This document shows positions 17,233-58,466 of a DNA stretch of 64,000 bases, piece by piece. Position numbers and translations under genes: made by a program. The stretch's first letter is position 1. Each line of letters begins with the position of its first letter. The notes beneath the pieces were generated by a model. The model saw only the letters and a program-made list of their open reading frames with translations. It ran no database searches and was not told the DNA's origin. Source of the stretch: Burkholderiales bacterium (GTDB taxonomy: Bacteria > Pseudomonadota > Gammaproteobacteria > Burkholderiales > SG8-41); the NCBI GenBank assembly GCA_022841375.1, contig JALHRQ010000001.1, forward strand, positions 548,892 through 612,891. The letters run 5' to 3'.

Positions 17233-18071
17233 GTCGTCTCCTGCGATTTGGAATCACCCCTTGCCTGTCGCAGGGTGACAAAATTCAGCTTCGCTGCCGT
17301 ACCCGCAGCCAGAACGGCAGGTAGCACTTCAAGAATAACAGGGATGCCCGCAGCTGTACGCGCGGAATTGCCGTCGTGTAACAGCAAAATGGCGCCCGAT
17401 CGCAAGCCACGCATCAATCTGCTTTTGACACGCTCAGCATCACCAATACGGGTATCAAAACCCCGCATCGACCAGCTCGCCAGCTGCAATCCCAGGCGAT
17501 GGAGTGCGGGATCCAGAAAGGGATTACGCAGACCGGCCGGGGCACGGAAAAAAACGGGGTGCTGCCCGGTAATCGCAACCAGGGTGTCCTGGCCCGCCTG
17601 CAATTCACGCAGGAATCCGCAGTACCCGAGGAATGAAAAGTTATGGCAGTGACGCTGGCTGTGGTTTTCCACAGCATGACCGCGACGCACGATTTCCCGG
17701 CACAAATCCGGGTACTGCACCGCATTGGCACCTATACAAAAAAAAGTGGCTTTGGCCGAATATCGATCAAGGATGTCCAGCACCTGCGGCGTCACCAGCG
17801 GATCAGGGCCATCGTCGATGGTCATCGCGACTTCATTGCGGGCAGACGCGGAATCAGGCAATTGCGTCCAGTTGGAACCGAGCCAGTCGCAGCGCGGCCA
17901 CAAACCGGCCAGCGCCAGCACGATGTGATTGGCGATGAACCCACCCAGCGCCCAGCGCCACTGTCCCGGATCGGCAAGGACCAGCATCAAGGCCGACACA
18001 TGCAGCGCAATCGACAGCCGGATCAAAAATCCGGGTTTCCAGCCGTTATTTTTGAGAACTGCGTAAATCAT
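17229..18071 (-). CDS. Polysaccharide deacetylase (NodB-homology, CE4)
   Basis: 280 residues. The N-terminal region has two hydrophobic segments (about 14-33 and 40-57), suggesting a membrane anchor. The NodB domain (about 80-260) has all catalytic motifs: TIDDGPDP (metal Asp), HSQRHCH (metal His pair), FRAPAG and LLHDGN. It removes N- or O-acetyl groups from a glycan or glycolipid outside or at the membrane. It lies 45 bases downstream of the MMPL exporter gene of the polyene cluster in the same direction, so it may belong to that operon. A role in modifying the lipid or sugar part of the pigment is speculative. Confidence 0.88.
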   Translation of the reverse strand: MIYAVLKNNGWKPGFLIRLSIALHVSALMLVLADPGQWRWALGGFIANHIVLALAGLWPRCDWLGSNWTQLPDSASARNEVAMTIDDGPDPLVTPQVLDILDRYSAKATFFCIGANAVQYPDLCREIVRRGHAVENHSQRHCHNFSFLGYCGFLRELQAGQDTLVAITGQHPVFFRAPAGLRNPFLDPALHRLGLQLASWSMRGFDTRIGDAERVKSRLMRGLRSGAILLLHDGNSARTAAGIPVILEVLPAVLAAGTAAKLNFVTLRQARGDSKSQETT

Positions 18072-18116
18072 GACAAAAACATGCCTCTGCCGAGACTGTC
18101 ATGTTTTTGGGAATTC

Positions 18117-20468
18117 TCAATGCGCATCGGATTGCCGGGCGAAAATTGCCGAATAAATCAGCGCAAGGATCACCCCCGGCGCCACTGTCACGCCCATGGC
18201 CTGCAATATCGGTACGCTGGAAAACGCCAGCAGGCCAAACCCCGCGACAGTTGTCAGATTGGCAAACAACATCGAGGTCAGCGTGCCCGGCTCGATGGCC
18301 GGCGCATTCAGGCGCTCGGCGCGGTCAAAAAACAGTGCATAGTTGGAACCCACCGCAGCCACCAGCAGCAAACCGACCAGATGCAGGATGATCAATTGCT
18401 GGCCCAACAGCGCCAGACCCGCAATGACGGTAATAATCGCAGCCAGCAGCGGCACGATGATCCGGGCCGCCCGTGCAAACGAACGAAATACCAGCAGCAG
18501 CAAACCAAAGATGGCCAGCACCCCGCCCAGCGACAACACGATGGCTTCATGCAGGTAACCGGAATACAAACGGTCCGATTCGACCTTCATATCCACGAAC
18601 AGAACGTCGGTCAAGTTCGCCGCCTGCAACGCCGTCTGAATCCGCGCCGCGTTGATGTCTGCACCCTTCGGCGCCGTCAGCGGCATCAAGGCGCTCCAGT
18701 GACCATTGCGCTGAATGAGCAGCGCGGCCACGGCCATACCCATGGAAGTCTGCTCCAGATGGTCGGCCTGCAGCATTGGCTGCACGCGCGCGGTAGCGGC
18801 ATCGCTGAGAAACGGCGTAAACAGTTTTGCGCGCACCGGCAGACCCTGAACAGCCTGTGCCAACCGCGCCTCCAGCACATCGGGTGGCGGCAGGCTGGCA
18901 AGACGGGCGCGCTGCGTCGCCATGCTGGGCAGATAACGGCTGGGGCTTTCAAAGCCGGCCAACGCACCCTGGTCGACTTGTATCTGCAGTATCGCGGAAG
19001 CCTTCTCGGCAGACAGCAGTGCGACTTCCTGACTCGCGCCGGAGACCACCACCAGATAACGCACATCCGGTGCGCCGGCATCGGCACGCAGCTTTGTATC
19101 CAGCTCCACTTCGGCGCGGGATACCGGACTCAATGACGATATCTTGTCATTCCACAAATCGCCACGATGCCAGACCAGTATGGCGCAGGAGACCAGCAGC
19201 AGCATGACTGCGGCGAGGCGAAACGCAGCGGCACGCCGCAACAAGCGGGATAAGACCACCCCGGTTGCCGATACATCGCGGATACGGAAATTTTCGGGCA
19301 GCAGATGCGGCAACACAAAACGGGTCACCGCCGCTGCAGCCACCAGCCCGGCAATTGAATAAAGGCCCAGTTGTGCCAGGCCGGGAAACCCGGACAGCAG
19401 CAGCGCGGAAAAACCGCACAAGGAGGTCAAAACGCCAAGGCGGATCGTCGGCCAGAATTGCCTGATCCAGTGTTGCCGGTCGGCACTGCCCCGCCCGGAT
19501 TGCACAAACAGGTAGATGGAATAATCCACTGCTTCACCGATCAATGCGGTGCCGAATCCCAGTGTGATGCCATGCACTGCGCCAAAACCCAGACTGACTG
19601 CTGCAATACCCGCAACCACCCCGGTCACAACCGGCAAAAATCCCAGTGCCAGCGCCATGAAGGACCGGTAAACCAGCAATAACAATATGGCGATGAGCAG
19701 GAAGCTGAGGACGGACAGGCGGCTGACCTGGCTGGTGATGGTGTCGCGGGAAGTGACTGAAAACACACCGGGCCCGGTCATCACCAGCTTCGCAGCAGGC
19801 GTTGCTGCAGAAGCTGCTTCAAAGGCCTTGCGGATCATGCGCATGGCGTATTCCTGCGCATCGATATCAGCACCCGTCGCGCGGGTCTGCACCATCATCA
19901 ATGCCCTTGCGCCATCCCGGGAAGCCCATGCGCCATTGATCATTCGCGGCCGGGAACTGCTGTTGAACTGGCTCAGCAACTGCACCATTTCACCAGTCGG
20001 GTCACTCGGCAGCAGCGATTTGACCAGCAGCCCGGCTGATGATGACAGCAGGTCAATGCTGTCTTCCAAAGCGGCATGCAATCCCTCCACGCTGAAGCGC
20101 TCAGGGGTCACCGCAGGACTCAGCCGATAACGATGATCGAACAGAAATGCCTGATCACGCGCGGCGTTGACGGGTTCGCCATTGTTGATGCTGACGAAAG
20201 CACTATTCGCGCGCAGGCTGAGCGCCATTTGTTTGGACAAGGTCGCACGTACTTGGGCGTCGGCACCTTCGATGCCAACGAGAATCAGGCGCGAGGCCAG
20301 GCCGTCGCGGATCTGGTCCAGCAGCATTTGCTGAGCCGGCGTGGGATTACGCGGGAAAAAGGCCGACAAATCCGTGGTGAACTGGCTGCGGCTGATGATG
20401 ATGCCGCAACTGATGACAAACGCGAGCCACAAAATGATTGCGGCGCGGGCGGACGTGACCCGCATCAC
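18117..20468 (-). CDS. MMPL/RND-superfamily exporter of the polyene cluster
   Basis: 783 residues with the two-fold repeated layout of MMPL proteins: one N-terminal helix, a large periplasmic loop, five or more helices around 245-400, a second helix and loop, and a second helix block near 630-780. AVIGEAVDYSIYLFVQSG-type and AVGSNYALFFDRAERL segments are typical of the family's helix-4 proton-relay region. It would export the lipid-linked polyene from the inner membrane. The start overlaps the stop of the LolA-like gene by four bases; the pair exporter plus LolA-like protein is a hallmark of aryl-polyene clusters. Confidence 0.9.
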   Translation of the reverse strand: MMRVTSARAAIILWLAFVISCGIIISRSQFTTDLSAFFPRNPTPAQQMLLDQIRDGLASRLILVGIEGADAQVRATLSKQMALSLRANSAFVSINNGEPVNAARDQAFLFDHRYRLSPAVTPERFSVEGLHAALEDSIDLLSSSAGLLVKSLLPSDPTGEMVQLLSQFNSSSRPRMINGAWASRDGARALMMVQTRATGADIDAQEYAMRMIRKAFEAASAATPAAKLVMTGPGVFSVTSRDTITSQVSRLSVLSFLLIAILLLLVYRSFMALALGFLPVVTGVVAGIAAVSLGFGAVHGITLGFGTALIGEAVDYSIYLFVQSGRGSADRQHWIRQFWPTIRLGVLTSLCGFSALLLSGFPGLAQLGLYSIAGLVAAAAVTRFVLPHLLPENFRIRDVSATGVVLSRLLRRAAAFRLAAVMLLLVSCAILVWHRGDLWNDKISSLSPVSRAEVELDTKLRADAGAPDVRYLVVVSGASQEVALLSAEKASAILQIQVDQGALAGFESPSRYLPSMATQRARLASLPPPDVLEARLAQAVQGLPVRAKLFTPFLSDAATARVQPMLQADHLEQTSMGMAVAALLIQRNGHWSALMPLTAPKGADINAARIQTALQAANLTDVLFVDMKVESDRLYSGYLHEAIVLSLGGVLAIFGLLLLVFRSFARAARIIVPLLAAIITVIAGLALLGQQLIILHLVGLLLVAAVGSNYALFFDRAERLNAPAIEPGTLTSMLFANLTTVAGFGLLAFSSVPILQAMGVTVAPGVILALIYSAIFARQSDAH

Positions 20469-21046
20469 CGGGCGGTCAACTTCTCAATGAGCATCAGCGA
20501 TCGGTCGCCATCAACCCGGTTGATTTCGATGCTGCTCACGAAATGCTGCGCCCCGGCAATCCGGATGTGCTTGATGGCCGCCTGCATTTTTTCATCGATC
20601 GGCAGCAGTTGCAGCGTCCAGCGCTCAGCCCCGCCCTCCAGACTGAGCCGATAGCTGCGTTCCAGCGCCTTGCGGTCGCCCGCCAGCGTACCGCGGATGC
20701 TGTCGATGACTGCAGCCAGTTCGGGATAATCCTGCAATTGCAGCGAATGTTTCTGGCGGCCACGCTCAATAACGATGGAGCCGCCATCGAGGATCATCGA
20801 TTCGGGCTTCGGCTTCAGCGTGCGTTTTTCCAGGCGATCGGGTGCGCTGTAGAACAATTCACCGGATGATTCCACCGGCTTGTCGAGCATGGCGATGTAT
20901 TTTTTCTCAACAAAGCTGGCCTGGCCGCTGCGGATCTGCGCCAGCCCCTGCATCAGCCGGTCAATATCCAGCCCGGCGGCATTGGTGATGCCGGCGAACA
21001 GCATCAGCGCCAGTGCGGCGGATACCCGTCGAATCAAGCACTGCAA
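20465..21046 (-). CDS. LolA-like outer-membrane lipoprotein carrier homologue
   Basis: 193 residues with a Sec signal peptide (cleavage near ITNAA, about residue 24). The mature protein is a LolA/LolB-like half-barrel; ASFVEKKYIAMLDKPVESSGEL and the Tyr-Ser-Ala-Pro-Asp-Arg segment recall LolA family strands. In this context it probably chaperones the hydrophobic aryl-polyene lipid across the periplasm after the MMPL protein. It is coupled to the MMPL gene and lies 40 bases after the acyltransferase gene. Confidence 0.85.
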   Translation of the reverse strand: MQCLIRRVSAALALMLFAGITNAAGLDIDRLMQGLAQIRSGQASFVEKKYIAMLDKPVESSGELFYSAPDRLEKRTLKPKPESMILDGGSIVIERGRQKHSLQLQDYPELAAVIDSIRGTLAGDRKALERSYRLSLEGGAERWTLQLLPIDEKMQAAIKHIRIAGAQHFVSSIEINRVDGDRSLMLIEKLTAR

Positions 21047-21086
21047 GACAGGCTCCTCAAGTAAACAGCAGGGGAAGACCGATGCA

Positions 21087-22028
21087 TCATGATGCTTTTT
21101 TTTCTACTATGGTTGCAGACTTCCAGAACTCAAAAAAGTTGAACCAATTGTAAGGTGCCTTGCGGCAATATTGATCGAGCAGTTCGGCATAACGGGTAAT
21201 TGCGGCATCGACGGCGGCGTTCCGTTGCTCACGGGCAACAGCAGAAAAATCCGCCAAGGTGTCGAAATGAATGACATAACGGTTGCCCCCGAGGTACAAC
21301 CCGGTCATGAACACCACGGGACGCTGCAACATGGCCGCCATGCGAAATGGCCCGACCGGAAGATTGGCGTCAGCGCCCAGGATTCGTGCCGGCCGCAGCG
21401 CCTCGCCTCCCGGGGTGCGATCAGCGAGCAGGCCGACAACAGTGCCGTCATCGAGACGCTCGCGCACCTGCAGCATGGAATCCACATGCCCCATACCGAT
21501 GATGTCCTGCGCCGCCCGGGGATTGATGGCTGCCAGCGCCGCCATGATTTTTTGTGCATTGCCCTGATGCATGACCATGGCGACGCGCAAATCCGCGTGT
21601 TTCCACCCAATCGCACGGATCACCTCAAAGCTGCCCAGATGTGCGCCCAACAAAATGAGGCCTTTGCCGCTGGCAAGCAGCCGGCGCATCGCCTCCTCGC
21701 CATGGACTTCAAAATCAAACAGGTCGAAGCGACGGTTGACCAGATAAATACGGTCATGGATGGTCGTGGCAAAAGTGAAGAAATGCCGGTACACATCGCG
21801 CCAGCGCGGTTCACGCCCCAGGGCACGGCGGAGATAATCTTCTGAAGCGTGTCGGCTGCCTGGCGCAAAAAGCAGAAAATAAGCGGCAATCCCATACAAC
21901 ACGACACGACTCGCGCGCCGTCCCAGGCGCATGGAAACCCACACCATGATGCGCAGTAAAAGGAGGTTGCTGCGCTCCGGGGCATGGGCCCAGGCGGCGT
22001 GCTGTGCGGAATTGGCTTGCGATGTCAT
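21087..22028 (-). CDS. LpxL/HtrB-type acyltransferase of the polyene cluster
   Basis: 313 residues of the lysophospholipid acyltransferase superfamily. The catalytic H(x4)D-like motif corresponds to GAHLGSFE (His plus Glu, as in LpxL/HtrB), followed by LLADRTPGGEA and PVGPFRMAAMLQRPVVFMTGLY. A hydrophobic segment is present near residues 42-55. In pigment clusters such enzymes are thought to load an aryl-polyene or fatty acyl chain onto the lipid anchor. The start overlaps the stop of the synthetase-dehydratase gene (ATGA). Confidence 0.88.
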   Translation of the reverse strand: MTSQANSAQHAAWAHAPERSNLLLLRIMVWVSMRLGRRASRVVLYGIAAYFLLFAPGSRHASEDYLRRALGREPRWRDVYRHFFTFATTIHDRIYLVNRRFDLFDFEVHGEEAMRRLLASGKGLILLGAHLGSFEVIRAIGWKHADLRVAMVMHQGNAQKIMAALAAINPRAAQDIIGMGHVDSMLQVRERLDDGTVVGLLADRTPGGEALRPARILGADANLPVGPFRMAAMLQRPVVFMTGLYLGGNRYVIHFDTLADFSAVAREQRNAAVDAAITRYAELLDQYCRKAPYNWFNFFEFWKSATIVEKKAS

Positions 22029-23674
22029 GCCGGGGGTCGCAATACGATATTGCCGCCGGCGATTTTGCGCGCACCGTCCGCGATGTCGAAACGGATGATG
22101 CCGCCCGTCTGAAACTCGTGCCGTATCTCCAGCGTATCGCCGGGTTTTGCCGGGCTGAGAAATTTGACGGAGCCGATTTCACAGCTCTCCAGCCCGATTC
22201 CCGCCGCATCGCTCAGGACCTGCAGCGCCATGTCCAGCAGCACCACGCCGGGAAGTATGGGTGTGCCGGGGAAATGTCCGGCAAAAGCCGGATGATCTGC
22301 CGGAACCATCCAACGTGTAACGCCATTAGTGCGATTTTTCCCTGCGCTGCGCGTCTGCACCAGCGCCTGCAGCGCCTCGCGCGGCAGCTTTCCCGTGCCA
22401 TTGCGCGGCAACGCATCCACAAACAGCAGCGGACGCGGCAGAAAGACCGGGTCAATATGTTCGCGCAAAGCCGTCAGCAGTTGCGGCGCCGTCATGCCGG
22501 GCGCCACCACACAGGCCGCAAGCCGCGTAATCTGATCATGGCTACCCTCATCCGGCATAAAAAACGCACCGTCCAGCACGCCGGGAATGGTATTGAGCAG
22601 GTGATTGAGACTGGCCAGGGAATGCCGCTTGCCGGCGATGTTGACCAGATCGGCAATCCGCCCGTGCAGCAAAAATTTTCCCTCAGCAACCAGTTCGATG
22701 ACATCGTTCAGGGCAGTCGATGTTTCGACATGGCCGCCGCAGGCATGTACGGCGTCGTTTTTTACCGCCAGTCTGATTTCGGGAAGCAGTTGCCATTCCG
22801 CTGATTGAGTCGGCCGACGGGTCGCGATCAGCCCGGTTTCGGTGCTGCCATAAATTTCCATCAGCGGTGCATTGCACAGCGTCTCCATTTCCTTCGCGAT
22901 GCGCATCGACAGGGGGGCGGTCGCAGACACCACCAGCGAAATTTCCGGCAAGGCCAGCCCCGAATCCAGCAAGGCGCGCAGATGGGCCGGTGACGACACC
23001 AGCACCCGCGGTGCCGGCACAGCAGCCAGTGCCTGGCAAATATCCGCCGGGTAGAACGGCTGGGCATGGCAAAACGTGTTGCCATTGCTCCAACTCATCA
23101 GCACCGTGGATTCAAATCCATACATATGCTGCGGTGGCACGGTACCGACGATGACGCAGGGCGCATTGGGCAACAGCCCCAGACCCGATGCTTCGGCCCG
23201 CACACTGCCGACCAGCCCCGCCCAGGTTTTGGCATGCGGTTGCGGCGAACCGGTGGATCCCGAAGTGAATACCACCGCGATGCGCTGGCGGGCATCAATC
23301 TGCGGAATTTCAAATACATCCGCCCCGCCCTCAACATCCATCGCCGGGTATCGCAGCCGCGGCAGATCAACAGGGCATGCATCGTTGTCGGTCAGGCAAA
23401 ACACATCCGGCGCAAACTCCCTGATCTGGCGCACCACACCCGGAGTGTGCGTCGACGGCAGCAGACTTACTTTGCCGGTCAGAATGGCGGCCGCCAGTCC
23501 CACGCTGAAACGGTAACGGTCAGCACATAGATTGAGCAGATGATTTCCCGCGGGAAACAGGGCGGCCAGGCAGCGAACCTCGGCGAGGAAGCGGCGCAGC
23601 GTGACGGGGCCATCGGCCCGCCAGGCAACAATGCTATCCGGAGAAACATGCGCTACGAGGGGCAGGAAAGCCAT
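22025..23674 (-). CDS. Acyl-CoA/ACP synthetase fused to hotdog dehydratase
   Basis: 549 residues with two enzymes of aryl-polyene synthesis. The N-terminal adenylate-forming domain (about 1-420) has the P-loop VFTSGSTGSPQPHAKT, the motif IYGSTETGLIATRR and the C-terminal lysine motif NGTGKLPREAL. It would activate the aromatic starter acid and load it onto the carrier protein. The C-terminal domain (about 435-549) is FabZ-like, with HPAFAGHFPGTPILPGVVLLD. Most aryl-polyene clusters encode these as adjacent separate genes. A longer frame upstream to 23917 overlaps the neighbouring gene and has no synthetase-like sequence, so the ATG at 23674 is preferred, although its ribosome-binding site is weak. 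Confidence 0.92.
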   Translation of the reverse strand: MAFLPLVAHVSPDSIVAWRADGPVTLRRFLAEVRCLAALFPAGNHLLNLCADRYRFSVGLAAAILTGKVSLLPSTHTPGVVRQIREFAPDVFCLTDNDACPVDLPRLRYPAMDVEGGADVFEIPQIDARQRIAVVFTSGSTGSPQPHAKTWAGLVGSVRAEASGLGLLPNAPCVIVGTVPPQHMYGFESTVLMSWSNGNTFCHAQPFYPADICQALAAVPAPRVLVSSPAHLRALLDSGLALPEISLVVSATAPLSMRIAKEMETLCNAPLMEIYGSTETGLIATRRPTQSAEWQLLPEIRLAVKNDAVHACGGHVETSTALNDVIELVAEGKFLLHGRIADLVNIAGKRHSLASLNHLLNTIPGVLDGAFFMPDEGSHDQITRLAACVVAPGMTAPQLLTALREHIDPVFLPRPLLFVDALPRNGTGKLPREALQALVQTRSAGKNRTNGVTRWMVPADHPAFAGHFPGTPILPGVVLLDMALQVLSDAAGIGLESCEIGSVKFLSPAKPGDTLEIRHEFQTGGIIRFDIADGARKIAGGNIVLRPPA

Positions 23675-23691
23675 GGGCGAAGCTGCAACAA

Positions 23692-24333
23692 CTACCGCGA
23701 ACTCAGGGGGGTGTTTTTGAACGCCCGCACCGCATCGAGAATGTGTGCGCCGGGCATCTCCGGTAACACCCGCTTGCGAACCCGGTATTCGACGATGAAC
23801 ATCAGCGCCACCAGGGGCAAGGTCATGAAATTGGCAAACACCGACCAGGTTGCCAGCGGCGCCAGAAAAAACAGCAGTGTGGAAATCAACACCATCACGG
23901 CAAAAAACAAGGTCCACGCGACCGTAACCTGTCGCGCGTAAATTTCATGTTGCGGGGTCAAGGGCCCATGCACCACCTCTGCGAATCGGGTGCAAAGCGG
24001 TTTTTTCCCCGCCATCAGGGTGCGGCCAAAAACAAGGCACAGCAGGAGCTGTATGCCCGCATTCTGCAACCAGTAAACCACCCCAAAATGATGCTCAAGG
24101 GACGGCCACACAGCCCATAACGCAAGACCGAGCAGCAGCACCATGCTCAGCATCAGCGGGCGGCGACTTGAACGCCAGGCCAGGAACAGTGCGGTCAATA
24201 CCAACGGGGCAACGGCAACCAGCGCGCCAAGGTGACCGCGGTGGGCGGATTCGTTGGTGTAATGCGCCAGCAAGGGATACCCGATGATCAGAACCGCTAT
24301 ACCCAGCCCGCGCAGCATGCGACGCAGCATCAA
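23692..24333 (-). CDS. COG4648-type membrane protein of the polyene cluster
   Basis: 213 residues and about six hydrophobic helices (near 10-25, 35-52, 57-75, 85-105, 130-155 and 160-180). This polytopic protein matches the conserved COG4648 family membrane protein found next to the carrier protein and synthetase genes in aryl-polyene clusters. Its biochemical role is unknown. The start overlaps the stop of the carrier-protein gene by four bases, and the gene ends 17 bases before the synthetase. Confidence 0.83.
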   Translation of the reverse strand: MMLRRMLRGLGIAVLIIGYPLLAHYTNESAHRGHLGALVAVAPLVLTALFLAWRSSRRPLMLSMVLLLGLALWAVWPSLEHHFGVVYWLQNAGIQLLLCLVFGRTLMAGKKPLCTRFAEVVHGPLTPQHEIYARQVTVAWTLFFAVMVLISTLLFFLAPLATWSVFANFMTLPLVALMFIVEYRVRKRVLPEMPGAHILDAVRAFKNTPLSSR

Positions 24334-24620
24334 CGGGTTCTTTGTGCCGCAATGTAATCAGCCAGACTGCGCAAAGAGCTGAAGGTGTACTGATTGTCTG
24401 CACTATCGGCACGCAATTGCATGCCGTAACGCTTGGAGACCACCAGGGCAACTTCCAGCACATCGATTGAATCGAGGCCCAGACCCTCGCCGTATAAAGG
24501 CGCATCCGGGTCAATCTGATCTGCAGTGATCTCCAGATTCAAACACTCGATCATCAACACGGCAACTTCAAGCTGCAGTTCGGAGTTACTGGAGACAACG
24601 GGTTTCTGGATATTATTCAT
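24330..24620 (-). CDS. Acyl carrier protein of the polyene cluster
   Basis: 96 residues, the size of an acyl carrier protein. The 4'-phosphopantetheine site is GLGLDSIDVLE (Ser near residue 51), the carrier that holds the growing polyene as a thioester. It is the first gene of the minus-strand unit. Aryl-polyene clusters usually encode two carrier proteins, and only this one is visible here. A roughly 290-bp divergent intergenic region separates it from the halogenase gene and should contain both promoters. Confidence 0.92.
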   Translation of the reverse strand: MNNIQKPVVSSNSELQLEVAVLMIECLNLEITADQIDPDAPLYGEGLGLDSIDVLEVALVVSKRYGMQLRADSADNQYTFSSLRSLADYIAAQRTR

Positions 24621-24910
24621 GGTGCAAAAAAATCCGCTTGATTAACAATCAGGATTAGAGTTTTCGTTACTGTATTGGTCTATAACGCAACAAACCAAAC
24701 GCCGCTGACCTGCCTGAACGTCCAATGATGTCAACATCTGGATTGTAATGCCGTCGGTCACCTCAGGCGGATACTTTCCCGCTTTCTGGGTGATTTCCCT
24801 CCGCTTGCGTACGGTAACCCACATAAGAAAGCCGGCTGTTCTGGTATTTTTCGCTTAGCCGAAACTTTGAACCAGACAATACCTATAAAAATTTGGCAGG
24901 ATAATCAGCC
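24621..24910. promoter_or_regulatory. Divergent promoter region of the polyene cluster
   Basis: 290 bp between the carrier-protein gene (minus) and the halogenase gene (plus). No gene or hairpin is evident. The halogenase side is AT-rich with CCTATAAAA near 24882-24890 and the ribosome-binding site GGCAGGA near 24896. No strong -35 box stands out on either side, which may mean activator-dependent expression. The promoter function is inferred from gene layout. Confidence 0.55.
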
Positions 24911-26254
24911 ATGAATCCATTAGCCGAATCGCCCGTTACCCGCGCTTCGGACTGCGACGTGCTGGTCATTGGTGGCGGCCCCGCGGGCTCGACAGCAGCC
25001 GCATTGCTCGCCGGGCGCGGTTACCGGGTAACCTTGCTGGAAAAAGCGCATCACCCCCGTTTTCACATCGGTGAATCCCTGCTTCCCGCCAATCTGCCGC
25101 TGCTTGAAAAGCTGGGCGTGGCGGATGCCGTCAAGGCAATCGGCATGGAAAAATGGGGCGCCGAATTCGTGTCGCCCTGGCACGACCACACACAGCCCTA
25201 TGAATTTGGCGGCGCCATGGATAAATCCATGCCCATGGCCTATCAGGTACGCCGTTCCGAATTCGACGAAATCCTGATCCGCAATGCCAGCCGTAAAAAT
25301 GCCCGTGTCGCCGAAGGTTGCCAGGTGCTGGACGTCGAGTTTTTAAAAGGCAACGAAGGCGCGTTGGTGCGCGCCCGCCACGAAGACGGCTGCGTCGAAA
25401 CCGTGGCTACGCGTTTTGTGCTCGATGCCTCGGGCCGCGATACTTTTCTCGGCAACCGCCTCAAAGTCAAAAAGCGCAATACGCAACACAACAGCGCCGC
25501 CATCTTCGGCCATTTTTCCGGTGCTGAACGCAAGCCGGGCAGGACCGAGGGCGACATCATGCTGTACTGGTTCGAACATGGCTGGTTCTGGTTCATCCCC
25601 CTGTCCGACGGCGCGACCAGTGTCGGAGCCGTTGTCTGGCCGTATTACCTGAAAACACGCAAAAAGAAGACGCTTGAGGAATTTTTCCGCGAAACCATTG
25701 CATTGTGCACGCCGCTGCACACCCGCCTGCAGAACGCACAACTGATTTCACCGGTTGAAGCCACGGGTAATTATTCCTATGTTTGCGAACGAACCCATGG
25801 CAGCAATTACCTGCTGCTGGGCGATGCATATACGTTCATAGACCCGGTATTTTCTTCCGGCGTCCTGCTCGCCATGCAAAGCGCCTTTGCCGGCGCAGAA
25901 GCTGTGGACACCTGCCTGCGCCACCCGCAGCAGGCCGCCGCTGCACTGGAAAAATTCGACCGTGCCATGCATGTCGGACCCAAAATTTTTTCCTGGTTTA
26001 TTTACCGGGTGACCAATCCCACCCTGCGCAACATGTTCATGGAGCCGCGCAATTATTTCCGGGTCCGTGAAGCAATGCTGTCCGTGCTGGCGGGCGACTT
26101 GTTTGGGAAAACCAGGATCGGCGGACCTTTGCTGGCATTCAAGGGATTTTATTACGTGACATCCATTATCAATTTCGGCCGCACCTTGAAGTCCTGGCGG
26201 ATGCGCAGAAACAACATCCGAGTGACGGATGAACCGGGTGCGACCATAAACTGA
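24911..26254 (+). CDS. Flavin-dependent halogenase-like oxidoreductase
   Basis: 447 residues. The N-terminal FAD fingerprint GGGPAGSTAAALLAGRG is followed by HPRFHIGESLLPANLPLLE and the signature HGWFWFIPL, which satisfies the WxWxIP motif of flavin-dependent halogenases. A second FAD contact, LLGDAYTFIDPVFSSGVLLAM, is also typical. It would use reduced FAD, oxygen and halide to halogenate an aromatic ring. Xanthomonadins are brominated and their cluster carries a halogenase homologue, so halogenation of the aryl head or polyene is the likely job. It is the first gene of the plus-strand unit; the stop overlaps the chorismatase start (TGATG). Confidence 0.9.
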   Translation: MNPLAESPVTRASDCDVLVIGGGPAGSTAAALLAGRGYRVTLLEKAHHPRFHIGESLLPANLPLLEKLGVADAVKAIGMEKWGAEFVSPWHDHTQPYEFGGAMDKSMPMAYQVRRSEFDEILIRNASRKNARVAEGCQVLDVEFLKGNEGALVRARHEDGCVETVATRFVLDASGRDTFLGNRLKVKKRNTQHNSAAIFGHFSGAERKPGRTEGDIMLYWFEHGWFWFIPLSDGATSVGAVVWPYYLKTRKKKTLEEFFRETIALCTPLHTRLQNAQLISPVEATGNYSYVCERTHGSNYLLLGDAYTFIDPVFSSGVLLAMQSAFAGAEAVDTCLRHPQQAAAALEKFDRAMHVGPKIFSWFIYRVTNPTLRNMFMEPRNYFRVREAMLSVLAGDLFGKTRIGGPLLAFKGFYYVTSIINFGRTLKSWRMRRNNIRVTDEPGATIN

Positions 26255-27315
26255 TGCGCACGATGACTCACTCCCTTCGCGGCCCGGACCTTACCGTTGG
26301 GGCTTTTCTCAATCAACCGGCGCAATGGAAAAACAGCACGCTCGGTGCCTTCTGTTTTTCAGCTGACGCTGCCGGCAAACAGCCCCCCGCTGAACTCGAG
26401 GTGCCGTGCATGCGCGTCGCCATGCCGAGGCTGGACGGCCTCGATGCCGTCTGCGAAGTCTGGCAGGGCAGCGGTCAACTGACCCAGGGGAGCCAGGGCG
26501 AACTGCAATACAGCCATGACGATGACGTGTTGTTCGGAGTGATTGCCCTGTCCGAAGCACGGTTTGCAACGGACGGCGCCAAAACGCCATTGCATCAAGC
26601 CACGGAAGCGGCCTATCGCCAGATATTTGCGCTCCTCGACAACCTGCGCTTCCCATATGCCTTCCGTTTCTGGAATTACATTACCGACATCAACGCCCAC
26701 AGTTTCGGACTGGAACGTTACCGCCAGTTCAATCTCGGCCGGCAGGACGCCTTTATTGCCCATGGCCGGAAAGTTACGGGCAATGTTCCCGCGGCCTGCG
26801 CCCTGGGTTCGGCTCAAGGGCCTTTGACCATTGCCTTTCTTGCCGGACGGGTGGCGCCCCTGAGTATTGAAAACCCGCGCCAGACCAGTGCCTGCGAATA
26901 TCCGCAGCAGTACGGCCCGCGCAGTCCGACTTTTTCGCGCGCCTGTCTGGTCCACCTGGGGCAGGAACAGGTTTTATTCATTTCGGGCACCGCCAGTGTG
27001 GTCGGCCACGCCAGCCTGCACCCCGCCGACGTTGGAGCGCAGACCCGCGAAACCATGAACAATATCAAGGCGGTGCTGGCCGAGGCGAACCGCCAGTCCA
27101 GCGAACCCGCATTCAATCTGGCCGATCTGCATTACAAAGTCTATGTGCGCCGGCCCGCCGATCTGGCGCAGATCCGTGCCGAACTGACGCAGTGTGTAGG
27201 TGACAAGCCCAAGGCGGTTTACCTCCAGGCTGATGTATGCCGCCAGGAACTGCTGCTGGAAATTGAAGCCACGGCGGCGCATCCGCTGACTGCAGCATCC
27301 GGAAGGCGGAACTGA
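26254..27315 (+). CDS. xanB2: Chorismatase (FkbO/Hyg5/XanB2 family), hydroxybenzoate synthase
   Basis: 353 residues. It cleaves chorismate to pyruvate plus a ring product. Family features include RFWNYITDINAHSFGLERYRQFN, SPTFSRACLVHLGQEQVLFISGTASVVGHASLHPAD and the C-terminal VCRQELLLEIEA. Cys329 and Glu336 are seven residues apart, a spacing I recall for the Hyg5 active-site pair (Cys327/Glu334), which favours 3-hydroxybenzoate as product. In Xanthomonas, XanB2 supplies 3- and 4-hydroxybenzoate for xanthomonadin and ubiquinone. Its position right after the halogenase supports a polyene-starter role. In-frame ATGs at 26254 and 26263 are both possible starts. Confidence 0.9.
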   Translation: MRTMTHSLRGPDLTVGAFLNQPAQWKNSTLGAFCFSADAAGKQPPAELEVPCMRVAMPRLDGLDAVCEVWQGSGQLTQGSQGELQYSHDDDVLFGVIALSEARFATDGAKTPLHQATEAAYRQIFALLDNLRFPYAFRFWNYITDINAHSFGLERYRQFNLGRQDAFIAHGRKVTGNVPAACALGSAQGPLTIAFLAGRVAPLSIENPRQTSACEYPQQYGPRSPTFSRACLVHLGQEQVLFISGTASVVGHASLHPADVGAQTRETMNNIKAVLAEANRQSSEPAFNLADLHYKVYVRRPADLAQIRAELTQCVGDKPKAVYLQADVCRQELLLEIEATAAHPLTAASGRRN

Positions 27316-27317
27316 CC

Positions 27318-28139
27318 ATGCGCGCCGTTTTTCGATTACTGCTGAATATCTATGACTACCTGGTGATTTACCTCGGCATCGCCTGGCTCGGCATTTTATG
27401 CCTCGTATGGACCCCGTTTGCGATGATTCTTTACCTGCTGCTGCCCGCGTCATGGGCCCGGGTACTGGGGCGTTACGCCATCATGATGGTGTTCCGGATT
27501 TTCATCGGCACCCTTAGCCTGTCGCGACGCTTCAGCTTTGATCTTGAAGATCTGGATGCGCTGCACGATGCCTCCTCAGTCATCATCGCCCCCAATCACC
27601 CGAGCCTTCTGGATGCGGTGATGGTGATTTCTCGCCTGCCCAACGTCGCCTGCGTGCTTAAAGCTGAATTGATGAACAATGTTTTCCTCGGTGCAGGTGC
27701 GCTGCTGGCGCGCTACATCCGCAATGAACCGGTACGTGACATGATCCGCTCGGCCATCCGGGATTTTGATTACGGCAGCCATCTGTTGCTGTTTCCGGAA
27801 GGTACGCGCACCACCTCGCACCCGGTCAACCCGCTCAAAGGCAGCATCGGCCTTATTGCTCTTCACGCTCAGACACCGGTGCAGACCGTGCTGATCGAAA
27901 CTAATTCAAAATACCTGAGCAAGGGCTGGTCGCTGTTTCGCATGCCGCCGATGCCCATCCATTACCGGGCGCGCCTGGGACGGCGTTTCGATCCACCGCA
28001 ACATGCCCGGCACTTCATGGTTGAACTCGATCACTACTTTGCGCATGAATTGAGCGGTGAACCCGCGTTTTATCCGACCGGCGACCTGGACGCGCAAATT
28101 GACAGCACAACGCAACTGACGCCTCCCTCGCCGTCGTGA
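27318..28139 (+). CDS. 1-acylglycerol-3-phosphate acyltransferase-type enzyme (PlsC family)
   Basis: 273 residues. An N-terminal membrane region (about 10-45) is followed by the PlsC domain with the catalytic NHPSLLDA (an NHxxxxD form) and FPEGTRTT. It transfers an acyl group to a lysolipid or alcohol acceptor at the inner membrane. It is the third gene of the plus-strand unit, two bases after the chorismatase, and its stop overlaps the glycosyltransferase start (GTGA). Together with the LpxL-type enzyme it could build the lipid anchor of the polyene. Confidence 0.9.
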   Translation: MRAVFRLLLNIYDYLVIYLGIAWLGILCLVWTPFAMILYLLLPASWARVLGRYAIMMVFRIFIGTLSLSRRFSFDLEDLDALHDASSVIIAPNHPSLLDAVMVISRLPNVACVLKAELMNNVFLGAGALLARYIRNEPVRDMIRSAIRDFDYGSHLLLFPEGTRTTSHPVNPLKGSIGLIALHAQTPVQTVLIETNSKYLSKGWSLFRMPPMPIHYRARLGRRFDPPQHARHFMVELDHYFAHELSGEPAFYPTGDLDAQIDSTTQLTPPSPS

Positions 28140-28900
28140 CCATCGCCTCCAGCACACACCTCGTTCTGATTCCCAGCTACAACCCCGGCACCAAGGTTTA
28201 TGAAACCGTACGTGCGGCACGTCAGCACTGGAGCCCCGTTTGGGTAGTGGTAGATGGCAGTACCGACGGCACTGCCGAAGGGCTGCGGTCACTCGCCGCA
28301 CAAGACGCCGAACTGCGCGTGATCGTTCTGCCGCACAACCAGGGCAAGGGCGCCGCAGTGCTGCATGGCCTCGAGCAGGCATCCGGGGCGGGTTACACCC
28401 ATGTGCTGACCATGGATTCGGACGGCCAGCATCCGCCCGATCGCATTCCGGCATTCATGGCGGAATCCGCTGCACAACCCGCCGCAATGATCCTCGGGGT
28501 GCCGGTGTTCGACGCCAGTGCGCCGGGTTTGCGCGTCAAAGGGCGGCGCATCTCCAACTGGTGGGCCAACCTCGAAACACTCTGGGCCGGCATCGGTGAT
28601 TCACTGTTCGGTTTCCGCGTTTATCCGGTTACCGCCTTGCAACGGGTCATGCAGAGCCAGCCGTGGATGCGCCACTTCGACTTTGATCCCGAAGCCGTGG
28701 TGCGCCTGTGCTGGCGCGGCGTCAAACCGGTCAACCTGCCCGCCGCAGTACGCTACTACCGCCCTGAAGAAGGCGGGGTGTCGCATTTTCGATATCTGCG
28801 CGACAACGTGTTGTTAACGTGGATGCACACGCGGCTGCTGATCGGGTTTGTATTGCGTTTGCCCATGCTGCTGGCCAAACGCGCGGCGGGGCGTTTTTAA
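28136..28900 (+). CDS. Family 2 glycosyltransferase of the polyene cluster
   Basis: 254 residues, GT-A fold. The start LVLIPSYNPGTKVYETVRAAR, VVDGSTDGTAEGL and the metal-binding DSDGQHPPDRI (DxD-type) are diagnostic of family 2. One C-terminal hydrophobic segment may tether it to the membrane. It probably adds a sugar to the lipid-linked polyene or its anchor; family 2 glycosyltransferases are standard members of these clusters. GTG start, coupled to the upstream acyltransferase gene. It converges with the ketoreductase gene with only 32 bases between them. Confidence 0.9.
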   Translation: MTIASSTHLVLIPSYNPGTKVYETVRAARQHWSPVWVVVDGSTDGTAEGLRSLAAQDAELRVIVLPHNQGKGAAVLHGLEQASGAGYTHVLTMDSDGQHPPDRIPAFMAESAAQPAAMILGVPVFDASAPGLRVKGRRISNWWANLETLWAGIGDSLFGFRVYPVTALQRVMQSQPWMRHFDFDPEAVVRLCWRGVKPVNLPAAVRYYRPEEGGVSHFRYLRDNVLLTWMHTRLLIGFVLRLPMLLAKRAAGRF

Positions 28901-28932
28901 ATTGTGCGGCCAGGAATAGCGGTGATCGGCCG

Positions 28933-29652
28933 TTAAATCATGCCGCCGTTGATGGAAATGATCTGCCCGGTGATATAGGCCGCCCGCGTTGAGGCGAGAA
29001 AACCGATCAGGTCCGCCACCTCATCCGGACTGCCTGCCCGCTTCATCGGCACCAGACGTGCAATTTCTGTCGCATCAAATGCCGATGCACTCATCGGCGT
29101 ATCGATAATCCCCGGCGCAACCGCATTGACGGTAATGCCGCGACCGGCAACCTCCCGGGCCAATGACTTGGTTGCCGAATTCAGTGCGCCCTTGGCCGCC
29201 GAATAATTCACCTGACCCGGGTTGCCGGTCAGCGCCGCAATCGATGACACATTGATGATGCGCCCCCAGCGGCTGCGAATCATTGGCATCATCAGCGGCT
29301 GGGTGACATTGAAAAATCCGTTGACCGACACATCCATCACCCGCTGCCATTGTTCGGCACGCATGCCGGGAAACACCACATCGTCATGAATGCCGGCATT
29401 GTTGACCAGGATCTGGATCGGCTGTTCCTCAATCAGCGGCGCCAGCACAGCGGCCACTGCCGCAGCGTCAGTGACATCAAACACCAGCACTTCTGCGCTG
29501 CCGCCCTCCGCATGGATGGCATCGGCCAGCGTCTGTGCCGCCTCCGCGCCGCTGCGGGCATGGATATAAACATGACATCCGTCAGCGGCCAGCCGGCGGC
29601 AAACCGCCGCGCCGATACCGCCACTGCCGCCGGTGACCAGGGCTTTTTTCAT
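28933..29652 (-). CDS. 3-ketoacyl-ACP reductase (FabG-type) of the polyene cluster
   Basis: 239 residues, a classical short-chain dehydrogenase. NADP-binding TGGSGGIGAAVCRRLA, the NAG motif (VNNAGI), catalytic Ser (NVSSIAAL), YSAAK (Tyr-x3-Lys) and the C-terminal GQIISINGGMI are all present. It reduces the beta-keto group in each polyene extension cycle. Its start overlaps the stop of the dehydratase gene by four bases. It is the last gene of the minus-strand unit ketosynthase, chain-length factor, dehydratase, reductase. Confidence 0.93.
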   Translation of the reverse strand: MKKALVTGGSGGIGAAVCRRLAADGCHVYIHARSGAEAAQTLADAIHAEGGSAEVLVFDVTDAAAVAAVLAPLIEEQPIQILVNNAGIHDDVVFPGMRAEQWQRVMDVSVNGFFNVTQPLMMPMIRSRWGRIINVSSIAALTGNPGQVNYSAAKGALNSATKSLAREVAGRGITVNAVAPGIIDTPMSASAFDATEIARLVPMKRAGSPDEVADLIGFLASTRAAYITGQIISINGGMI

Positions 29653-30128
29653 GAGGATGCTTCTCCTGCAAGGGGTTTAAGCAGTTCGGCGTTAAGCACT
29701 ACTGCGGCACGCCCTTCCAGCAGCGGTTGCCCGGCAGCGCTGATGCTGAACTGATAAAGAATATTGTTTTCACTGCGTGTAATGCAGCCCGCTTCCACCA
29801 GCAGGTCGGCGGCGATGTCATCCAGCCGGGATACATGCAGCCGCACGCCGCGGGCGCTGACCAGATAACCGGCGCGGGCGCCCGGGCCGTCCGGCGGCGC
29901 CAGCAAGGCGCCGTGTACTGCCATGGCTTGTGCCGCATATTCGATGCCACAAGCGGCACCGAGCTGGCCATGGGCGCGCAATGGATTGTCCGTGGCACGA
30001 TGACTGACGGCTCGACAGCGAATGCCCTGCTCGTCCCAGGCTTCCACCTCTTCCAGCAGACACATGCTGCCCTGGTGGGGAATATGTCGCCTTATCCAGG
30101 CATGGTCGAGTCTGGCCTGATTCAGCAT
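29649..30128 (-). CDS. Hotdog-fold 3-hydroxyacyl-ACP dehydratase of the polyene cluster
   Basis: 159 residues of the aryl-polyene-associated hotdog dehydratase type. The HIPHQGSMCLLEEVEAWDEQGI segment is characteristic of the family, and the central helix region GIEYAAQAMAVHGAL follows. It would remove water to form the conjugated double bonds. It is the second dehydratase of the cluster, the other being fused to the acyl-CoA synthetase. In aryl-polyene systems two dehydratases may act together. It overlaps the upstream chain-length-factor gene by seven bases. Confidence 0.88.
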   Translation of the reverse strand: MLNQARLDHAWIRRHIPHQGSMCLLEEVEAWDEQGIRCRAVSHRATDNPLRAHGQLGAACGIEYAAQAMAVHGALLAPPDGPGARAGYLVSARGVRLHVSRLDDIAADLLVEAGCITRSENNILYQFSISAAGQPLLEGRAAVVLNAELLKPLAGEASS

Positions 30129-30919
30129 GAGGCAACCCTCACGGCAAGACGCGTGTCACCAAGATAATCCAGTACCACATGATGATCGCCGCCCAGTGCG
30201 ATGCTGCGCAGCAGCGGCAAACCGCGTGCTGCAGGAATCGCCGTTCGCAAACCTTCAAAAGCCCCATCGTCCATCCGGTCGGCAGCAGCATCTGTCAGGC
30301 TGGCGGTGATTTTTGCCAGTGCACGGGCACTGCGTTGCGGGGCTAATACCAGTGCAATGCCGAAAGCATCAGGAATGGGCCGGACGCCGTGCAAGGGCTC
30401 CGGATAACTGGTATCACAGGCCAGCAAAATAACGCGCTCATTGTCGACCACGATTTGGGTCAAAGCCTCCAGCAAACCGGCTCCGAAGCAGGCATCAAAG
30501 GCACCCAGTACCGTTGACGGCGCCATCGCGCCGGTGGCTATGCTCCAGTAACCGGCAGCAGCGTTATGCACGGAATTATGAAAACGTGTCGGAGAAATCT
30601 GCCGGTCATCCGAAGCGAGCATTTCACAGATGGAATGACAGTTTTCGCCATCACCGCCGGAAGCCGTGAACACCATAGGCAAGGTGACCGCATCAAGTCC
30701 GGCCGCGTTGATGGCTTCGAGTCCAGTCGCCAAAGTGAGCCGGACAATGGCACCGCTGCGTCGGCGTTCCGCCGCCGGCAGCAAAGCCGGCAGCGGCAAC
30801 ACGGTCCTGGCCGCTTGATAGGCTTGCTGACCGCAAATGACGGCCCGGCTGTCCGGCCAGTTACTGAAGCCGGGCCCCAGCAGGCCGATGCCTTCGATAT
30901 ATGCGCTGAGTGTGTGCAT
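30122..30919 (-). CDS. Ketosynthase chain-length-factor-like protein
   Basis: 265 residues, about two-thirds the length of a normal ketosynthase. It matches the 'beta-ketoacyl synthase chain length factor' family found in aryl-polyene clusters. The start MHTLSAYIEGIGLLGPGFSN fits that family; the longer frame upstream to 31207 is antisense-like sequence inside the ketosynthase gene. No catalytic cysteine motif is visible. FTASGGDGENCHSICEML and HNSVHNAAAGYWSIATG are recognisable family segments. It probably forms a heterodimer with the next gene's ketosynthase and sets polyene length. Confidence 0.88.
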   Translation of the reverse strand: MHTLSAYIEGIGLLGPGFSNWPDSRAVICGQQAYQAARTVLPLPALLPAAERRRSGAIVRLTLATGLEAINAAGLDAVTLPMVFTASGGDGENCHSICEMLASDDRQISPTRFHNSVHNAAAGYWSIATGAMAPSTVLGAFDACFGAGLLEALTQIVVDNERVILLACDTSYPEPLHGVRPIPDAFGIALVLAPQRSARALAKITASLTDAAADRMDDGAFEGLRTAIPAARGLPLLRSIALGGDHHVVLDYLGDTRLAVRVASC

Positions 30920-30921
30920 GC

Positions 30922-32115
30922 CTAGTTCGCCCGCGAAAAAATCAGGCTGCAATTGGTGCCGCCGAAACCGAATGAGTTGCTGAGCGCATGCGCCACCCGC
31001 TGCTCGCGATTCACCAGCAGGTAATCGAGATCCAGCGCCGGATCGCGTTGGCGGGTGTTCAAGCCGGCAGGCAGCAGGCCATGTTGCAGCACCAGCGCGC
31101 AGATCACCGCCTCCAAGCCGCCGGCCGCACCCAGCGTATGGCCGGTCGCGCCCTTGGTGGAACTGCAGGGTGTTTGCGAACCGAACACATGCTGTACGGC
31201 CTTGCACTCCGCCGCATCGTTGGTCGGTGTCGCCGTGCCGTGCAGATTGATATAGCCGATGTCCGCCGGCAGCAAACCCGCCATTTTCAGCGCGCCCTGC
31301 ATGGCCATGCGCGCGCCGAGTCCATCGGGATGCGGCGACGACATATGATAGGCATCACTCGACTCACCAGTGCCGCGCAACAATACGGCATCGCCAACCA
31401 GATGTTCCGGCGCTTGTTCCAGCAAGGCAAACGCTGCCGCCTCGCCGATCGAAATGCCGTTGCGCTGGGCGTCGAACGGACGGCAAGCCTGTTCAGACAT
31501 CAGGCCCAGCGAGTTGAAACCATAAAGTGTGGTCAGGCACAGCGTATCCACGCCGCCCACCACTGCGGCATCGATCAGGCCGGCCGCCATCATGCGGCGC
31601 GCCGAAGCAAAAACCCTGGCACTGGAGGAACAGGCCGAGGACACCACCACAGCCGGACCGGTAAGACCGAAATAACGACGCGTGAAGTCCCCAACCGAAA
31701 AAACGTTGTGCGTCTTGCCGTAAACAAAATCCACAGGCAAGGCGCCGGTCGCCGGATCGCGGCGCCGGTAGGCCAGTTCGGTCTGCAGGATGCCGGCAGT
31801 ACTGGTGCCAAGAAACACGCCTACCCGCTGCGCGCCGTATTTTGCGATGGCGGTACGAACAGCCTCGTCAAAACCGTCCTGCAGCAATCCCAACAAGGCA
31901 AGCCGGTTGTTGCGGCAATCGAAATCGGTGAGCTGTGAAGGAAGGCGCACTGCGTCCACCCCCGGCACCTCGCCGATCACTGTGGCCAGATCCACGGTTT
32001 CAAACGCGCAAGGTGCCAGACCGCTGCGGCCCTCGCGGAGCGCAGCCAACGTTTGATCCAGACCGCAGCCGATACTGCTGGTCGCTGTGAAATGGGAAAG
32101 CCAGAGCGGGTTCAA
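30922..32115 (-). CDS. Beta-ketoacyl-ACP synthase of the polyene cluster
   Basis: 397 residues, a FabF-type condensing enzyme. The active-site triad is intact: Cys in VSSACSSSARV, His in NLHGTATPTND and His in TKGATGHTLGAAGG; the C-terminus NSFGFGGTNCSLIF is typical. It extends the aryl starter with malonyl units. It lies two bases upstream of its chain-length-factor partner, so the pair is co-expressed. The PAP2 gene is 64 bases upstream in the same direction, so the operon may extend further. Confidence 0.94.
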   Translation of the reverse strand: MNPLWLSHFTATSSIGCGLDQTLAALREGRSGLAPCAFETVDLATVIGEVPGVDAVRLPSQLTDFDCRNNRLALLGLLQDGFDEAVRTAIAKYGAQRVGVFLGTSTAGILQTELAYRRRDPATGALPVDFVYGKTHNVFSVGDFTRRYFGLTGPAVVVSSACSSSARVFASARRMMAAGLIDAAVVGGVDTLCLTTLYGFNSLGLMSEQACRPFDAQRNGISIGEAAAFALLEQAPEHLVGDAVLLRGTGESSDAYHMSSPHPDGLGARMAMQGALKMAGLLPADIGYINLHGTATPTNDAAECKAVQHVFGSQTPCSSTKGATGHTLGAAGGLEAVICALVLQHGLLPAGLNTRQRDPALDLDYLLVNREQRVAHALSNSFGFGGTNCSLIFSRAN

Positions 32116-32179
32116 AGCAGATAAACCTGTGATTTTTAAATTCGGGAGAATTCAGATTGTTTCGCGATTTGCAACCGGA

Positions 32180-32863
32180 CTACCTTGCATCAGCCAGCAC
32201 GCGGCCACGCAATGAAAGGCTGGCCGCCAGCACGCCCAACCCCAAACCGGCCAGCACATCCACCACGACATGCTGACGCACGGCGAGCGTGGAATATACG
32301 ATACCCGCGCACCATGCGCCATTAACCAGAAGCATCCACCACGGCGCCCCGAAACGGCGCAGCAGCCGATGCAACCAAAATCCGGAAAATACAGCCGTGG
32401 CCACATGCAGCGAGGGACAGGCATTACCCACGGCATCGAGGTTTTTCAGAAACTCCATTTCAGGGTAAAGGGCCCAGTCGATCTCGGCCGGGGCGACAGC
32501 TGTCGGCCAGAAATAGAAAATTCCGAGCCCGACGAGGCACATCGCCGCCATGGCTGCAGCATAGCCATACAACTCACGGCGCAAGGACAGAAAGGCCGGG
32601 GGCAGGGAAACGTAAATCCACAGCGATACATACAAATAAAAAGCCTGCGGCTGAAAGGGAATCAGGCGATCCAAGGCAGTCACAGGCATCAGCGTCGGTG
32701 GATAGGCAGGGTGCTCGAGCACATAAAAATAAGCGGCAAAAAACAGCGCGATAAACAGCGGGGTGCCAATCGCTTTCAGAGGCACATCCGTCAACAGGGG
32801 CCCCGCGATCTGTCGGTACCACGGGGTCGGTTGCTCAGTATTGCGCAAAATGCAGTCGCTCAC
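32180..32863 (-). CDS. PAP2-family membrane phosphatase
   Basis: 227 residues and about six membrane helices. The acid-phosphatase signature is present in part: CPSLHVATAVFSGFWLHRL corresponds to the PSxH motif and the final STLAVRQHVVVDVLAGLGLG to the SRxxxxxHxxxD motif, here with Thr-Leu-Ala in place of Ser-Arg. It would hydrolyse a lipid phosphate. It lies 15 bases after the radical SAM gene and 64 bases before the ketosynthase, in the same direction. A link to making the diacylglycerol-like anchor for the pigment is possible but unproven. Confidence 0.82.
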   Translation of the reverse strand: MSDCILRNTEQPTPWYRQIAGPLLTDVPLKAIGTPLFIALFFAAYFYVLEHPAYPPTLMPVTALDRLIPFQPQAFYLYVSLWIYVSLPPAFLSLRRELYGYAAAMAAMCLVGLGIFYFWPTAVAPAEIDWALYPEMEFLKNLDAVGNACPSLHVATAVFSGFWLHRLLRRFGAPWWMLLVNGAWCAGIVYSTLAVRQHVVVDVLAGLGLGVLAASLSLRGRVLADAR

Positions 32864-48586: not shown

Positions 48587-48804
48587 GTCTCTCTCCTGGG
48601 TAGGCCGGCGCGTGCCACAAAATCTGGACGTTTTGCTTGGTCAAGCGCGACGGTGAAATCCAGCTTAGCCGAGCCACCGGTACAGGGCAAGCATCGCCCA
48701 CAGTCTGGTCGTCCCTCCCCGCGAATTCGCCCAAATTGGGTGAACATTGCCGGAGGCGAACCCTTATAATTTCAGGCTTTTCCGCACCCTCCGGCCCAAT
48801 CCAC

Positions 48805-52523: not shown

Positions 52524-52559
52524 TCAAAACCAAAATAACGTCACACGAGGAACCTGCAA

Positions 52560-53366: not shown

Positions 53367-53430
53367 ACGTGAGTAACAGTAAACGCTTCTATTACCCCTC
53401 TCCCCAGCCCTCTGCTGTGCTTCGAGTGTT

Positions 53431-53457: not shown

Positions 53458-53487
53458 AGCGTCTCATTTTGGTATGTGCTCCTGGTC

Positions 53488-54504: not shown

Positions 54505-54519
54505 CAGAGGAGATTTGCA

Positions 54520-55660: not shown

Positions 55661-55690
55661 CTGTAGATCTGTTCATTTAAAGGACTCATC

Positions 55691-58449: not shown

Positions 58450-58466
58450 ACCACCGGCTCCAATAT

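Follow-up and report, generated by a model that had tools for sequence, protein, structure and literature searches.

What would a block of pigment-type genes that holds both a chorismatase and a flavin-dependent halogenase make in a betaproteobacterium, and is that combination special to the Xanthomonadales? The question arises from a 64,000-nucleotide stretch of a Burkholderiales genome (hereafter the window; contig JALHRQ010000001.1 of assembly GCA_022841375.1, positions 548,892 to 612,891), in which open reading frames (ORFs) and family scans outline one compact aryl-polyene cluster at about 17229-32863. We consider it highly probable that this is a cluster of the arc/xan type, predicted from its genes to make a xanthomonadin-like yellow pigment. 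That identity, which the original prediction had also proposed, is supported by the structures that the ketosynthase and chain-length factor match and by a gene match with the arc loci of Azoarcus.

A single block of aryl-polyene genes

The cluster is laid out in three runs of genes. On the minus strand, from 32115 down to 28933, lie the ketosynthase, chain-length factor, a dehydratase and the ketoreductase; on the plus strand, at 24911-28900, lie the halogenase, chorismatase, an acyltransferase and a glycosyltransferase, each start overlapping the preceding stop or standing 2 bases away; and on the minus strand again, from 24620 down to 17229, lie the acyl carrier protein (ACP), a membrane protein, the AMP-ligase with its FabA-like tail, an acyltransferase, the LolA-like protein, the MMPL exporter and a polysaccharide deacetylase. 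For comparison we took the best 80 of 584 confirmed stretches from a halogenase search of named genomes. Because these loci were chosen by the halogenase itself, and many are cut by contig ends, gene counts among them are not prevalences. The genes assigned to the block, or adjoining it, are as follows.

30922-32115, minus strand: ketosynthase (arcK/ApeO-like) with Cys162, His292 and His326; NF006618 562 bits, cut-off 407; best PDB matches 7f28_B and 6qsp_A
30122-30925, minus strand: half-length chain-length factor (arcJ/ApeC-like) in ORF 30122-31207, start inferred near 30925; PF13723; PDB 6qsp_B and 7f28_A
29649-30128, minus strand: predicted 3-hydroxyacyl-ACP dehydratase (arcI/ApeP-like); PDB 6qsr_B, E 8e-4, and operon place; no Pfam match at 0.01
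28933-29652, minus strand: 3-ketoacyl-ACP reductase (arcH/ApeQ-like); NF004200 357 bits, above the cut-off of 273
28136-28900, plus strand: family 2 glycosyltransferase (arcE-like); PF00535, E 7e-23
27318-28139, plus strand: phospholipid/glycerol-type acyltransferase (arcD-like); PF01553, E 1.6e-12
26254-27315, plus strand: FkbO/Hyg5-family chorismatase (arcB/XanB2-like), predicted to provide a hydroxybenzoate starter from chorismate; PF21168, E 6.5e-39; TIGR04444 233 bits
24911-26254, plus strand: variant-B-like flavin-dependent halogenase (arcA-like); PF04820; motifs; CndH, FasV, PltA, Mpy16 and CmlS structures
24330-24620, minus strand: ACP (arcV/ApeE-like); NF006617 132 bits, above the cut-off of 70
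23692-24333, minus strand: membrane protein at the arcU position; no family above cut-off; place kept in other loci
22025-23674, minus strand: AMP-ligase (arcT/ApeH-like) with C-terminal FabA-like dehydratase (arcS/ApeI-like) in one frame, start inferred near 23674; PF00501 and PF07977 above cut-off
21087-22028, minus strand: lipid-A-type acyltransferase (arcR-like); PF03279
20465-21046, minus strand: LolA-like periplasmic carrier (arcQ/ApeL-like); PF19574, E 3e-25; LolA2_flexi, 9.7e-19, below cut-off
18117-20468, minus strand: MMPL/RND exporter (arcP/ApeM-like); PF03176
17229-18071, minus strand: polysaccharide deacetylase (arcN-like); PF01522; present in 43/80 halogenase loci
32180-32863, minus strand: PAP2-family membrane protein adjoining the ketosynthase; PF01569; present in 29/80 halogenase loci
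16279-17232, minus strand: histone-deacetylase-domain protein of uncertain cluster membership, its gene, at the export operon's end, overlapping that of the polysaccharide deacetylase; PF00850, E 5e-73; in 3/80 halogenase loci

The membrane protein at 23692-24333 we take to be COG4648. What makes the block an aryl-polyene cluster is the company that these genes keep: a ketosynthase and half-length chain-length factor with a ketoreductase and dehydratase, an AMP-ligase with a dedicated ACP (the only one among 20 ORFs scanned), and MMPL, LolA-like, acyltransferase and glycosyltransferase genes. The ketosynthase and chain-length factor find their best PDB matches in the two chains of 6qsp and of 7f28, and 6qsr_B is the sole significant PDB match of the dehydratase at 29649-30128; we take 6qsp and 6qsr to be the ApeO:ApeC and ApeI:P complexes of Xenorhabdus. 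The ketosynthase triad is invariant in 51/51 rows, after short or weak rows and rows with unknown residues had been dropped (4 halogenase, 3 chorismatase, 6 ketosynthase and 1 chain-length factor, here and in the residue counts below). Given those best matches and the invariant triad, the ketosynthase does not, by sequence similarity, lie outside the aryl-polyene families, the placement that the original prediction had named as counting against it; the exporter was compared at family level.

Every aryl-polyene gene type that had been claimed for 18117-32115 is present there by family scans and PDB matches. That extent holds for the core, and the block is larger, adding the deacetylase at 17229-18071, the PAP2 gene at 32180-32863 and perhaps the gene at 16279-17232. 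The gene set is not a chance assembly, because most of its genes exceed curated thresholds of Pfam or NCBIfam and because L019, a contig from another genome of the genus, carries 21/21 query genes (15038-35984) with their order unchanged.

Known counterparts in Azoarcus, Xanthomonas, Lysobacter and E. coli

The closest characterised counterpart is in Azoarcus sp. BH72, where two arc loci make the xanthomonadin-like pigment arcuflavin (PMC3949708; published systems are described here and below from excerpts of the papers cited). The first locus holds arcA (halogenase), arcB (chorismatase), arcD (acyltransferase), arcE (glycosyltransferase) and arcH-K (ketoreductase, dehydratase, chain-length-factor-like protein and ketosynthase). 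The second holds arcN (polysaccharide deacetylase), beyond which sits arcM, and arcP-V (exporter, LolA, acyltransferase, dehydratase, AMP-ligase, a protein of unknown function and ACP) (PMC3949708). Pigment was lost on insertional inactivation of arcK or arcT (PMC3949708). By annotation, and in the case of arcU by place only, 16 window genes match arcA, B, D, E, H-K, N and P-V in order, but the two modules that are separate loci in BH72 form one block in the window, and we placed no counterpart of arcC, F, G, L, M, O, W or X there. The window also differs in carrying the ligase and dehydratase in one frame and in that no darB was found. In another strain, Azoarcus sp. TTM-91, eight genes match by sequence, with the order of glycosyltransferase and acyltransferase swapped.

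The same gene set, including halogenase and chorismatase, is thus already known in another betaproteobacterium, and the suggestion that the pairing may be uncharacterised outside the Xanthomonadales is rejected by the BH72 arc loci, in which arcA was described beside arcB in 2014 (PMC3949708). The excerpt also names polyene clusters of Dechloromonas aromatica, Variovorax paradoxus and Sideroxydans lithotrophicus (PMC3949708), and a figure legend of 2013 marks the halogenase as a neighbour of the paired ketosynthase and chain-length factor in all its examples but Lysobacter and Xylella (PMC3691225).

Compared by description, the xanthomonadin cluster of Xanthomonas is like the window in having, in the excerpted papers, the chorismatase XanB2, a halogenase, a ketosynthase with a chain-length-factor-like protein, and one ACP (the last from PMC8253772). 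The yellow-pigment cluster of Lysobacter enzymogenes shares with the window a ketosynthase and half-length chain-length factor, ketoreductase, two dehydratases, ACP, acyltransferase and XanB2 homologue, but is described in the excerpt without a halogenase (PMC3691225). Since this species belongs to the Xanthomonadaceae, the pair is not a mark of the Xanthomonadales. To our knowledge, there is no chorismatase or halogenase among the genes of the E. coli aryl-polyene cluster. That cluster resembles the window in its ketosynthase, dehydratase, ketoreductase, acyl-ACP synthetase, LolA-like protein and RND exporter, and differs in its 4-hydroxybenzoate (4-HBA) starter from UbiC and its two ACPs, ApeE and ApeF (excerpts of PMC8253772).

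The shared frame of the AMP-ligase and the FabA-like dehydratase (22025-23917) is seen in the window only; they occupy separate frames in 14/14 other loci showing both, and L030 has even its ligase split in two. Near the junction, at 22335-22340, an alignment of four relatives shows a one-base length difference from the window in a run of A. Because only the window has the single frame, and because of that one-base difference, the frame is probably a sequencing slip or a recent fusion, and we doubt the fusion.

Starter unit, halogenase and product

We propose that the chorismatase would convert chorismate to 3-hydroxybenzoate (3-HBA), and perhaps to 4-HBA too, and that the AMP-ligase would load hydroxybenzoate onto the carrier protein, after which the ketosynthase and chain-length factor pair would extend this starter with malonyl units, and the ketoreductase and two dehydratases would turn each extension into a double bond. 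The halogenase would add bromine or chlorine to the aryl end or the chain, the acyltransferases and glycosyltransferase would attach the polyene acid to a lipid or sugar, and the LolA-like and MMPL proteins would carry the pigment to the outer membrane, where it would absorb light and quench oxidants. A membrane pigment, as had been predicted, would be in line with the literature on homologous clusters.

Residues of the chorismatase bear on the first step. In Hyg5 the catalytic acid is Glu334, and three residues set its subfamily apart (excerpts of PMC7170507), which we read as Gly173, Gly240 and Cys327 of Hyg5, using a numbering shift from our alignment. The window enzyme has Gly245, Cys329 and Glu336 as in Hyg5, each in 55/55 rows, while FkbO has Ala at the positions of Gly245 and Cys329; FkbO-type chemistry is therefore unlikely, and 3-HBA formation likely. 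In vitro, ArcB yielded 3- and 4-HBA (the latter arises non-enzymatically as well), and ArcT was able to activate 3-HBA (excerpts of PMC3949708).

It is also conceivable that the polyene starts from 4-HBA, as in E. coli, and that the chorismatase serves ubiquinone: XanB2-type enzymes make both hydroxybenzoate isomers, and four relatives carry the halogenase with no chorismatase detected. We regard this as improbable, because the window's own genome has a UbiC match (as do 57/74 genomes of its family), so that ubiquinone need not depend on the chorismatase, whose gene sits inside the pigment operon, and because Azoarcus took an analogue of 3-HBA, not one of 4-HBA, into its pigment (excerpts of PMC3949708). 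The chorismatase as the only supply of 4-HBA for ubiquinone is rejected by the same UbiC match.

The halogenase at 24911-26254 is directly followed by the chorismatase, so that the claimed combination of the cluster with these two genes holds. Published halogenase motifs are GxGxxG, WxWxIP, Fx.Px.Sx.G and an active-site lysine, with CndH and Mpy16 labelled variant B (excerpts of PMC7336383), and the window enzyme has GxGxxG at 21-26, Lys81, WxWxIP, which had been claimed, at 225-230, and FxxPxxSxG at 309-317. Ranked by sequence, CndH (3e1t) comes first, followed by 8zop (FasV), Mpy16, PltA, ChlB4 and CmlS; the seven best PDB sequence matches of the window enzyme are halogenases, and its Lys81 faces a lysine in each of five PDB alignments. 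A fold search with its structure model (mean predicted local distance difference test score, pLDDT, 76; predicted template-modelling score, pTM, 0.80) returns the same halogenases. Lys81 and each of the three motifs are kept in 80/80 rows (the window, 54 loci with a chorismatase and 25 without). The gene is under purifying selection, with a ratio of nonsynonymous to synonymous divergence of 0.11-0.14 in six pairs, similar to that of the ketosynthase (0.10-0.13 in three pairs); these ratios are rough, synonymous divergence being mostly above 0.6, and none was computable for one ACP pair.

Several observations weigh against a halogenating xanthomonadin-type cluster. The chain-length factor has Gln157 in 44/53 rows, the residue nearest, in a placement that is not sure, to a glutamine of the Lysobacter factor called conserved and needed for pigment (excerpts of PMC3691225). 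The genes scanned in the block did not include a methyltransferase (arcM), and a sequence error may underlie the ligase-dehydratase frame. The TIGR04444 score of the chorismatase is below the cut-off of 325, and in 55/55 rows Ala183 stands where Hyg5 and FkbO have Gly, the third Hyg5 residue being unmatched. The halogenase scores below every NCBIfam cut-off shown, and 3nix, titled flavoprotein/dehydrogenase, resembles its model in fold about as closely as the halogenases do. Arcuflavin, for its part, was concluded to be non-brominated, although arcA is present beside arcB (excerpts of PMC3949708). The last two points would fit an enzyme that keeps the halogenase fold but instead hydroxylates or reduces the aryl or polyene part. 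We think this rather unlikely given the complete retention of Lys81 and the motifs and the run of halogenases among the best sequence matches; a bromide-free medium could also explain an arcuflavin without bromine.

Arcuflavin raises one further alternative, in which the window's pigment would be a similar hybrid, an ester of its aryl polyene with a dialkylresorcinol whose genes lie at another place in the genome. The BH72 cluster makes such a hybrid with dar genes apart from its arc loci, and the host genome here (4.08 Mb) is 99% complete in 66 contigs, so that a gap could hide dar genes. But the only ketoacyl synthase III (KS-III) found is FabH, in a plsX-fabH-fabD locus, and a StlD/DarB model finds no match in the genome at 1e-60 (7/74 family genomes match, 1 over the cut-off); darA was not searched for. 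Because no DarB-type synthase was found, the hybrid appears very improbable, and a plain xanthomonadin-like acid or ester is the likelier product.

The halogenase and chorismatase among relatives

Nor does the window's own family support a pairing special to the Xanthomonadales: 14 of its 21 genomes with a strong chain-length factor match carry both genes. These 21, out of 74, match the chain-length factor at 1e-36 or better, a threshold that excludes G018 (2.5e-24), G032 (3.7e-7) and many near 1e-4. The halogenase (18/74) and the chorismatase (15/74) occur wholly within the 21, and outside them no halogenase match at 1e-60 and no chorismatase match at 0.001 was found in the family. Besides the 14, four have the halogenase only (G056, G060, G063, G065), one the chorismatase only (G041) and two neither (G035, G050); G056 (80% complete) and G065 (100%) are also without a UbiC match. 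Across the class, sampled as 369 genomes including the window's own, at most 4 or 5 candidates were scored per genome, so that the counts are lower bounds: the halogenase is in at least 35/369 (E 1e-100 or better), the chorismatase in at least 53/369 (E 1e-40 or better), and at least 19/369, from 14 families, have them no more than 1 kb apart.

In the 80 halogenase loci, six of which carry the same halogenase as six stretches from family genomes, a chorismatase adjoins the halogenase (gap at most 222 bases) in 56, and none lies within the stretch in 24. Among the loci with both genes are some titled Sulfuriferula, Zoogloea, Cupriavidus or Azoarcus, as well as Lamprocystis and Acidithiobacillus from beyond the betaproteobacteria; Polaromonas loci (L062, L063, L065-L067, L071, L072, L077, L080, L084 and L089) have the halogenase and no chorismatase in the stretch. 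In 22 loci that have no chorismatase we checked whether some other gene stands in for it between the halogenase and the acyltransferase: this gap is under 200 bases in 20, L059 has one ORF in it, and L050 has a different gene order. L018 and L030, metagenome-assembled contigs titled Bordetella parapertussis, match contigs of G028 and G067 in the window's family exactly in length and halogenase and appear to be those very contigs; these record names are probably wrong.

Elsewhere in the window, a CheB-CheR-PAS fusion and, after it, a PAS hybrid histidine kinase with a receiver domain lie at 8680-13856, and a gene at 15038-16072 is presumably a flavin monooxygenase. At 48637-63935, where part of the ORFs were scanned, 2Fe-2S and molybdopterin hydroxylase subunits, an amidohydrolase, a thiamine pyrophosphate enzyme, a UbiD-like decarboxylase and a molybdopterin oxidoreductase may make up an aromatic-degradation region.

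The window adds a compact, single-block example to the pigment clusters known from Azoarcus and Xanthomonas. It also sharpens a contrast between a conserved, selected halogenase in many betaproteobacterial clusters and the sole characterised product that we found for the group, which is without halogen; among the open-licence papers listed (at most 5-20 per search), judged by title or abstract start, we found no report of a halogenated aryl polyene from a betaproteobacterium. We tentatively speculate that betaproteobacterial xanthomonadin-like clusters may make halogenated aryl polyenes not yet seen, the halogenase acting in polyene assembly regardless of the starter, because its motifs persist in relatives' clusters without a detected chorismatase. 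If so, those relatives would need 4-HBA or another head, and the non-brominated arcuflavin would reflect halide supply and not loss of function.

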